From positions 62,001 through 126,000 of the forward strand of contig NZ_PVTH01000010.1 of NCBI RefSeq assembly GCF_003002875.1: DNA of 64,000 nt. Direction: 5' to 3'. Positions 54,511 to 56,622 of the stretch are shown here, piece after piece. Under the pieces are notes generated by a model. That model saw nothing but the letters and a program-made list of their open reading frames with translations, did not search any database and was not told the origin of the DNA. The stretch comes from Arcticibacter pallidicorallinus. GTDB taxonomy: Bacteria > Bacteroidota > Bacteroidia > Sphingobacteriales > Sphingobacteriaceae. The number at the start of each line of letters is the position of its first letter. Positions within the stretch are counted from its first letter, which is position 1. Position numbers and translations under genes: made by a program.

Positions 54511-55236
54511 ATGGGAAGAGCATTCGAGTTCCGTAAAGAAAGAAAATTTAAACGCTGGGCCAAGATGGCGGTTCAGTTTACCCGCTTGGGTAAGGAAATT
54601 GTAATGGCTGTAAAAGCAGGCGGTCCGCTTATCGAGACGAACTCGCGACTGCGTACAGCTGTGCAAAATGCGAAGGCCGTAAATATGCCTAAGGACAGGA
54701 TCGAAGCGGCGATAAAGAGAGCGTCAAGCAAGGACGAAAGCAACTACGAAGAGATCGTTTATGAAGGATACGCGCCTCATGGAGTAGCTATACTCGTTGA
54801 AACAGCGACGGATAATACAAACCGCACGGTAGCGAACGTCCGCAGTTATTTCAATAAAACCAACGGAACATTAGGCAAAACAGGATCTCTGGATTTTATC
54901 TTCAATAGAAAGTCTGTATTTAAGTTTGACCCTGCAGACCGTGATCTGGAGGAGCTTGAGTTCGAGCTGATTGATGCGGGACTTGAAGATCTGTTTGTGG
55001 AAGCAGATGAAGAAGGAAACGACATCGCGGTACTTCATACTGCCTTTGAAGACTTTGGAAAGATGCAACGTGCACTCGAGGAGCAAGGCATCGAAGTGAA
55101 GAGTGCGAAACTGGAGCGGGTTGCACTATCTTTCTCTGAGGTTACGGAAGAACAGGCAGCTGACGTAATGAAGCTGATTGACAAGCTCGAAGACGACGAT
55201 GATGTCCAGGCTGTTTATCATAACATGGCTGAGTAA
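54511..55236 (+). CDS. YebC/PmpR/TACO1-family protein
   Basis: A 241-residue protein of a family described both as DNA-binding transcriptional regulators (PmpR) and as translation factors that relieve ribosome stalling at proline-rich stretches (TACO1, YebC). It starts MGRAFEFRKERKFKRWAKMA and shows GGPLIETNSRLRTAVQNAKA, NMPKDRIEAAIKRASSKDE, EGYAPHGVAILVETATDNTN and a C-terminal DDDDVQAVYHNM. All three family domains are present. It is followed after 15 nt by a Pro-rich repeat protein, a neighbour worth noting given the translation-factor role. Confidence 0.95.
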   Translation: MGRAFEFRKERKFKRWAKMAVQFTRLGKEIVMAVKAGGPLIETNSRLRTAVQNAKAVNMPKDRIEAAIKRASSKDESNYEEIVYEGYAPHGVAILVETATDNTNRTVANVRSYFNKTNGTLGKTGSLDFIFNRKSVFKFDPADRDLEELEFELIDAGLEDLFVEADEEGNDIAVLHTAFEDFGKMQRALEEQGIEVKSAKLERVALSFSEVTEEQAADVMKLIDKLEDDDDVQAVYHNMAE

Positions 55237-55251
55237 TTAAAAAAGAACGAA

Positions 55252-56622
55252 ATGACTTTTGAAGAATTTTTCAATAAAAAGAGAATTGACCTGGGACTGC
55301 TCAAAGGTGCAAACCCTGCGCTTTATTCTGAATTCAAAAGTCATTTCGAAACCATGGGAGAAAAGAGCTTCGACCACACTAAAAAATTCTGGTTTAATAA
55401 GCTGAGGCATCTGTATCATTTGGCAGAACCAGTAAAAAAGGCTACCACACAGCCGGAGACGCAAATCGCATCACAGGCAGAACCGCTAAGCTCTCCTACT
55501 ATCGAGCAGAATGTTCCGGCTATTCAAGCTGAGACGGGCCAGGAAGTGAAAGCGCCTGCTTCGCCCAAGCCGGGATTCCGACCGAGAAGCATCCCAGCTC
55601 CAGCTGTACAAAAAACAGAGCAACCTGCTGATACAAAAGACGATGCTGCTTCTGATAAGCCAGCCGCTCCGGTTAGCAAACCGGGGTTCAAGCCGCGGAA
55701 TGTGAAGCCTGTATCGGGAGATTTATCAGAAGACTCACAGAAAACGGCCAGCCGGCCAGGCCAGGATATCCCGTCCGGTGCCTCGCAGGGTAATGCCGCA
55801 AATACACCCCGCCCTGCTTACAAACCACGCTTCAACGCTGGAAAGATCGCGGAAAAAACCGGAGATGCCGAAGAGAATGAGAAAGAGGCTATTGCAGGAA
55901 CGACATCCCCGGCACAGACGACAGTCTCAAGTAAGGCTTCCGCATCAGCGGCAGAACAACCCAAGCCTGCCTATAAGCCCCGGTTTAATGTGAAAAACAT
56001 TCCTGCTAAGGAGAATGCAGCGGGGGACAAGGATCCAGGTACGGAAGGTACTAAAGACAGAACATCTGCAGCAACTTCGCCCGTAGAGCATGCTGTTTCG
56101 GAGAGCTCCTCTCCGGCTGATAACGTAGCTAAAACAAGTGATGGAGCACCTGCTGCTGCTATTGATTCTGCCGTTGATCCTGTTGCAAAGCCGGTCTATA
56201 AGCCCCGCTTCAACCTTAAGACTACTATCAAAACGGAGGCTGAAGAAAAAGAAGGCAACTCTGTTGTAAAAGACCCTTCAACCGGAACGGCAGAACCTGA
56301 AGAACACACATTAGCTGCCGTTCAACCAACCACTGAAGAGGCCGGATCTCAATCAACACAGCAATTGCCGGAACAAAGGTCTGGTGCGACTGAAGAAGTA
56401 AAAGTTGCTGCACCGAAACCCGCTTATAAGCCGCGCTTCAACGCAAAGACTATTACACTGAAGGCAGATGATGAAGCAGGAGCTTCGCCATCTGAACAAC
56501 CTGCGGCCCCTGTTGACTTGTCGGAGAAAAGCCAGGAGTCAGCAGCCGAAGCTTCGGAACAACCCACCAAGCCTGCTTACAAGCCCAGGTTCAATATAAA
56601 AAACATCAAACCTAAGGAATAG
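55252..56622 (+). CDS. Disordered protein with seven KPxYKPRFN repeats, unknown function
   Basis: A 456-residue protein that I cannot place in a named family. The first 57 residues look folded and helical (MTFEEFFNKKRIDLGLLKGA onward, rich in aromatics). The rest is Ala/Glu/Pro/Ser/Thr-rich and probably disordered, with seven copies of a basic motif: KPGFRPRSI (about 106), KPGFKPRNV (about 143), RPAYKPRFNAGKI (about 187), KPAYKPRFNVKNI (about 238), KPVYKPRFNLKTT (about 313), KPAYKPRFNAKTI (about 389) and KPAYKPRFNIKNI (about 439). Spacers are 28-65 residues and acidic. The last copy ends the protein. There is no signal peptide or membrane helix. It lies 15 nt after a YebC-like gene and should be co-transcribed. 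Confidence 0.8.
   Translation: MTFEEFFNKKRIDLGLLKGANPALYSEFKSHFETMGEKSFDHTKKFWFNKLRHLYHLAEPVKKATTQPETQIASQAEPLSSPTIEQNVPAIQAETGQEVKAPASPKPGFRPRSIPAPAVQKTEQPADTKDDAASDKPAAPVSKPGFKPRNVKPVSGDLSEDSQKTASRPGQDIPSGASQGNAANTPRPAYKPRFNAGKIAEKTGDAEENEKEAIAGTTSPAQTTVSSKASASAAEQPKPAYKPRFNVKNIPAKENAAGDKDPGTEGTKDRTSAATSPVEHAVSESSSPADNVAKTSDGAPAAAIDSAVDPVAKPVYKPRFNLKTTIKTEAEEKEGNSVVKDPSTGTAEPEEHTLAAVQPTTEEAGSQSTQQLPEQRSGATEEVKVAAPKPAYKPRFNAKTITLKADDEAGASPSEQPAAPVDLSEKSQESAAEASEQPTKPAYKPRFNIKNIKPKE

Follow-up and report, generated by a model that had tools for sequence, protein, structure and literature searches.

Scaffolds with tandem linear motifs are well described in eukaryotes and less often in bacteria. 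In passages of PMC10484944, CsoS2 of the alpha-carboxysomes appears as a disordered protein whose repeated short linear motifs dock multivalently and vary in number between species, and a separate part of it binds another partner. A second point of comparison is provided by the proline-rich antimicrobial peptides (PrAMPs, e.g. Onc112 and ARV-1502), which in part of PMC8950706 are free peptides acting on the exit tunnel or DnaK; there the PrAMP D3KPRPYLPRP12 has a YLPRP core, and one analogue carries KKPRPYKPRP. The YebC/TACO1 family (passages of PMC12234827) is related to the present locus in another way, as the neighbouring gene within the Sphingobacteriaceae.

The protein described here is encoded by a single open frame in the stretch of 64,000 nucleotides that was analysed (the window; Table 1). 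Like CsoS2 it has repeated short linear motifs, varying in number, in a chain predicted to be disordered, and docking is proposed for them here; the motif itself differs, being [IV]TG in CsoS2 (passages of PMC10484944) and KPx[YF]KPRF in the family of the window protein. The basic, Pro-kinked core resembles the Y[LSIK]PR of the PrAMPs as given in part of PMC8950706, but it lies inside a long protein whereas the PrAMPs are free peptides, it is followed by F and not P, and its aromatic is replaceable in relatives. Membership of the PrAMPs was rejected, the window protein having 456 residues and the core YKPRF as against a short free peptide of the YLPRP type. Comparison of a 23-residue stretch with PDB sequences (chains of at least 20 residues) gave no match. 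No paper on KPRFN, FKPRFK, YKPRFN or GFKPRF was found in the open-licence library searched, where searches on disorder in Sphingobacteriaceae and on YebC in Bacteroidetes returned no title on this protein.

Table 1. Positions in the window of the gene, its elements and its upstream neighbour
Feature	Position (nt)	Strand	Basis
YebC/TACO1-family gene, upstream neighbour	54511..55236	+	PF01709, PRK12378.1
456-aa protein, helical N-terminal domain and disordered motif array (predicted)	55252..56622	+	Single open frame; homologues found
N-terminal domain (aa 1-60), five predicted helices	55252..55431	+	AlphaFold2, alignment
Second conserved tail element ETQIASQAEPLSSPTIEQ (aa 69-86)	55456..55509	+	Regex among 99 family proteins
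Motif copy 1, KPGFRPRSI (aa 106-114)	55567..55593	+	Regex, copy comparison
Motif copy 2, KPGFKPRNV (aa 143-151)	55678..55704	+	Regex, copy comparison
Third conserved element ASRPGQDIPSG (aa 166-176)	55747..55779	+	Core regex among 99 family proteins
Motif copy 3, RPAYKPRFN (aa 187-195)	55810..55836	+	Regex, copy comparison
Motif copy 4, KPAYKPRFN (aa 238-246)	55963..55989	+	Regex, copy comparison
Motif copy 5, KPVYKPRFN (aa 313-321)	56188..56214	+	Regex, copy comparison
Motif copy 6, KPAYKPRFN (aa 389-397)	56416..56442	+	Regex, copy comparison
Motif copy 7, KPAYKPRFN (aa 440-448), 8 residues before the C-terminus	56569..56595	+	Regex, copy comparison

The head domain and its forms across families

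The open frame begins 15 nt past the stop codon of the YebC/TACO1-family gene, the distance given in the first-pass annotation, whose description of the product (a small folded N-terminus, then a disordered chain with seven motifs) is borne out by AlphaFold2 and by a regex count. The N-terminal head, modelled as residues 1-60, is predicted to fold into five helices (pLDDT 86.7, pTM 0.65). After about residue 61 secondary structure is absent from the model and block-mean pLDDT falls at about 35-52, so that the motifs are, by this prediction, embedded in a disordered chain, as had been supposed. In an alignment of 22 divergent head sequences I12, F46, N49 and R52 are invariant, and K10 and K45 are nearly so.

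Pfam contains models of CsoS2. The whole window protein matches no Pfam family at E values up to 1, and membership of the CsoS2 family was rejected on this ground. Pfam, NCBIfam and PHROGs gave no convincing match for the window protein or selected relatives; SWIRM (E 0.04), DUF7026 (E 0.0053), lipoyltrans (E 0.022) and phrog_20337 (E 0.035) were put down to chance, all such weak matches lying under the curated cut-offs where these exist. A sequence search of solved PDB chains, ribosomal ones included, found nothing below E 0.6. With the predicted structure of the head, neither Foldseek against the PDB nor a search of a viral structure library returned anything at E≤0.001, and the best VIA-align Z score among the 4 chains compared was 2.4. 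The lack of a fold match does not show that the fold is new. New, as judged from sequence comparison, is a head domain that several families of the class possess and that lacks a convincing match in Pfam, NCBIfam, PHROG or PDB.

The gene was found in 29 of 60 relatives by a single-sequence search. Of the class, 395 genomes were searched with a head profile (A1), which matched 36 of them, and another (A3, one row of which contains a typing slip) matched 12 of 395 genomes of a phylum sample. Within the order 183 of 300 genomes match, from 15 of 17 genera, and each matching genome listed in the class and order searches has one domain match. Since those 183 genomes carry a domain that is nameless in the libraries searched, finding the partner of the head would annotate many genomes. 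The family of the window (f1) is taken to be Sphingobacteriaceae, to which Arcticibacter and Mucilaginibacter belong; two other families, f2 and f15, have matches in 8 of 13 and 26 of 60 genomes, respectively.

In f1 the number of motif copies ranges from 0 to 9 (counted by one regex), the variants ranging from KPAYKPRFN to KPxGFKPRFKAG. In two small genomes the protein consists of the head only, with 57-59 residues (L027 and L029), and genus g5 has a single terminal copy of the YKPLF type (L020 and L023). Repeat-less homologues, which the first-pass annotation had named as a sign against its reading, do therefore exist; they also fit growth of the array from a C-terminal copy. Most of the f15 members seen are about 79-107 residues long with a basic, Pro-rich C-terminus, and in most cases M, I, L or V stands in place of the motif aromatic. 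The peptide Φ[KR]P[KR] is present in 13 of 15 f15 tails, these 15 being drawn from the 26 matches (on average 1.45 proteins after shuffling); its fuller form, [KR]PxΦ[KR]P[KR], is found in 7 of the 15 (on average 0.05 after shuffling). Φ[KR]P[KR] occurs mostly as one or two adjacent copies near the C-terminus, and in the 12 short-tailed proteins among the 13 it lies 5-18 residues from the end. In the loci read the f15 tail is otherwise short, but in one member (L240, genome G1065) a KPxMKPK-type motif has been expanded separately into an array. In the f2 proteins the arrays that follow this head repeat a different unit of basic residues, Pro and hydrophobic residues, and the Φ[KR]P[KR] core shows no enrichment over shuffled sequences (2 of 4 proteins against a mean of 1.47). 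We infer from these sequences an ancestral C-terminal peptide that was multiplied separately into arrays, the tie of f2 to this peptide being one of style. The head is seen tailless, followed by a terminal motif or, in three groups, followed by an array, so that the growth of arrays out of one peptide can be traced.

In Arcticibacter svalbardensis (L061:4001-4807, the same locus as L011) the array runs out into an unrelated reading frame, and another stretch with motifs lies in a separate open frame downstream; this is likely to be a frame break in a draft genome.

The motif array and probable selection on its copies

The tail of the window protein contains [KR]Px[YF][KR]PR seven times, five of the copies having the form [KR]P[AV]YKPRFN and copies 1 and 2 being weaker. 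The last copy had been thought to form the C-terminus; it lies near the end but stops short of it. When the tail was shuffled 20,000 times, 3 shuffles contained one motif and none contained more. All 12 tail aromatics lie inside motifs. The motifs carry 21 K/R and no D/E and the spacers 55 D/E and 30 K/R; the net charge of the tail is -3. Family tails (95 proteins) are likewise near neutral overall, with basic motifs set among acidic spacers (median -2, range -13 to 8). A histone-H1-like basic tail was considered and rejected, as these tails are not strongly net-positive.

Across 99 non-redundant family proteins the motifs are spaced by a minimum of 30 and a median of 45 residues, and in the 95 with a motif the last copy lies a median of 12 residues from the C-terminus. 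The residue before the motif aromatic is G or A in 95 percent, and that after the motif F is in most cases K, N or R. Beyond the repeated motif the near relatives have further tail elements in common. The ETQIASQAEPLSSPTIEQ element is found by one regex in 13 of the 99 proteins, and 52 of them have an AEQT-type stretch that may be related to it; the [SA]RPG[QKT] core of the SRPGQ-type stretch is found in 9.

The pattern Px[YF]KPRF[NK], which misses T and V variants, was searched for in the DNA of 41 genomes. All 19 matches lie within this gene, 18 in sense and one antisense, including all 5 in the genome of the window; the pattern read backwards gave 5 matches as a control. By this pattern the motif is therefore not seen in another gene.

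The copies were compared with one another at the codon level. Pairwise comparison gives pS 0.90 and pN 0.08 for the five best window copies, and pS 0.96 and pN 0.22 for all seven. Over 1007 within-gene copy pairs from 94 genes the motif has pN 0.108 and pS 0.828, while the spacer, taken as the ten codons upstream of the motif, has pN 0.550 and pS 0.681; the contrast in pN is partly built in, because the regex fixes 4 of the 7 counted positions. With the same partial circularity, the motif is more conserved than the adjacent spacer in 94 of 94 family genes, the opposite of the erosion at spacer rate that had been named as a refuting sign. The synonymous divergence of the copies is not built in by the regex, and with codons near saturation and the peptide kept, the copies in the window gene are not recent duplicates. 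A less circular measure than motif pN is the position of the tail aromatics in the 99 proteins, 856 of 962 of which sit in motif windows. We read the motif array as being under selection, and conserved motifs between diverging spacers support the earlier proposal of a multivalent short linear motif. Near-identical, recent repeat units are visible in places (e.g. L211 and L039).

A possible docking scaffold and its alternatives

The best explanation, to which about an even chance is given, is that the protein is a multivalent docking scaffold made up of a head and an array of partner-docking motifs, and that it is cytosolic by sequence (no signal peptide is seen by eye). The head would anchor to one site, perhaps via the invariant polar residues N49 and R52 with K10 and K45, and the basic/aromatic, Pro-kinked motifs would all fit one groove on a second, shared partner, whose docking surface would probably be acidic-hydrophobic. 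AlphaFold2 docks no motif confidently. The string of motifs would give avidity or allow several partner copies to be held by a single molecule; the partner may be a groove on a protein, rRNA or a chaperone. The starting point may have been an ancestral protein with such a peptide at its C-terminus, multiplied into a string in the Sphingobacteriaceae. Against this reading, the gene is undetected in whole lineages and the copies vary from 0 to 9 between relatives, so that having several motif sites is not essential to the family. The motif is short enough for a pull-down with a synthetic peptide, for example KPAYKPRFNVKNI.

A long shot would be a head attached to the translation or chaperone machinery and a PrAMP-like C-terminal peptide that acts as an endogenous ribosome or DnaK ligand, multiplied in the Sphingobacteriaceae into a many-armed tether. 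The likeness to the PrAMP core may be taken as a lead, against which counts the replacement of most aromatics in f15.

A possible but doubtful alternative is association with RNA or the ribosome, with both the head and the C-terminal basic motif as binding sites for rRNA or the ribosome and a higher affinity through the array. The short members would then resemble small ribosome-associated proteins with a basic tail, and the size and C-terminus of most f15 proteins, the invariant N and R and the near-invariant K of the head are consistent with this. Genes related to translation also adjoin it at some loci (yebC within f1, an obgE-cluster gene within f2, tsf at L157), and Y[LSIK]PR-like peptides are ribosome ligands in part of PMC8950706. 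However, the f1 tail is near neutral overall, the neighbours vary from family to family, f15 mostly replaces the aromatic, and no solved chain, ribosomal ones included, is significantly similar in sequence.

The confinement of most aromatics to spread-out motifs, up to 9 of them by regex, in a polyampholyte tail would suit a condensate scaffold of stickers and spacers in which the R/Y/F motifs stick to one another and there is no specific partner. This is rather unlikely, as residues beside the regex core are also restricted, beyond what stickers need, and some members have one terminal motif only. Passive drift, in which the head and C-terminal motif alone matter and the internal copies are by-products of slippage, would account for the freely varying copy number and the recent repeat units; that old internal copies with saturated synonymous sites still keep the motif makes it quite unlikely.

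Gene neighbourhoods and the YebC question

The first-pass annotation suggested a functional pairing with YebC. The yebC gene lies directly upstream in 23 of 29 f1 loci and in 76 of 80 named loci, the latter being the best 80 of 242 relatives and hence leaning to close ones. The gap between the two genes ranges from -4 nt (lowest value in 21 loci measured) up to 541 nt, with small overlaps in three loci. Of the same 80 loci, 67 have a dehydrogenase-like gene and 59 an asd-like gene, counts which are limited by contig ends. The linkage thus holds within f1, but the asd-like and dehydrogenase-like genes are conserved there as well, and in other families no yebC was found within 1.5 kb (sets of 21 and 14 loci, f2 and f15 included). 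Each gene also occurs without the other nearby. In 6 of the 29 fetched f1 loci the gene is present without yebC (one, L027, starts near a contig end), and ten f1 genomes keep yebC (76-87% identical) with no copy of this gene detected. When the DNA flanking yebC was scanned with the profile at 15 loci, no head domain turned up; the window locus served as positive control. In four of the ten genomes (L181, L182, L185 and L187) yebC is followed, as compared by eye, by the hydrolase/glycosidase type of gene that also stands after the window gene.

The pairing had been argued from translation of proline-rich stretches. The window protein has no PP dipeptide, which makes the polyproline-stalling argument weak; PP occurs in 84 and PPP in 12 of 99 family proteins. 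A single-chain fold of a YebC-protein fusion, from an alignment with rows that read through the natural gap between yebC and the gene, gave no confident docking, a weak result. That the protein is a dedicated YebC partner, or a YebC substrate, in the translation of proline-rich sequences is therefore very improbable in spite of the adjoining genes, given the wider conserved block, the separate occurrence of either gene, the lack of PP and the fusion model. YebC was rejected as the leading partner idea, since the linkage does not exceed shared local gene order; this arrangement of genes has most likely been inherited, and the YebC/TACO1-family neighbour is probably not a dedicated partner.

In g14, a large genus of f1 (G018, G207, G355, G376, G413 and others), nearly all listed genomes have no match to the head; yebC is kept in all five genomes tested, and one genome (G806) has a borderline head match (E 5.1e-4).

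The neighbours in other families (obgE, an M16-like peptidase gene, an M50-like gene by eye, a pair of kbl and dehydrogenase-like genes, and tsf) recur too little to name a pathway. An obgE-cluster gene is present in 3 of 4 f2 loci (one scanned). At L151, L153 and L154 the f2 head gene lies between the obgE-cluster gene and a gene for an M16-like peptidase, unlike the arrangement in f1. At L157 tsf adjoins the head gene. In loci of f27 and f15 without yebC within 1.5 kb (L161 and L165), a similar dehydrogenase-like gene flanks the head gene. At L165:4941-7435 the head gene lies between a dehydrogenase/epimerase-like gene and that for glycine C-acetyltransferase (kbl), and at L161 the dehydrogenase/epimerase-like and kbl genes cluster nearby in the same way.
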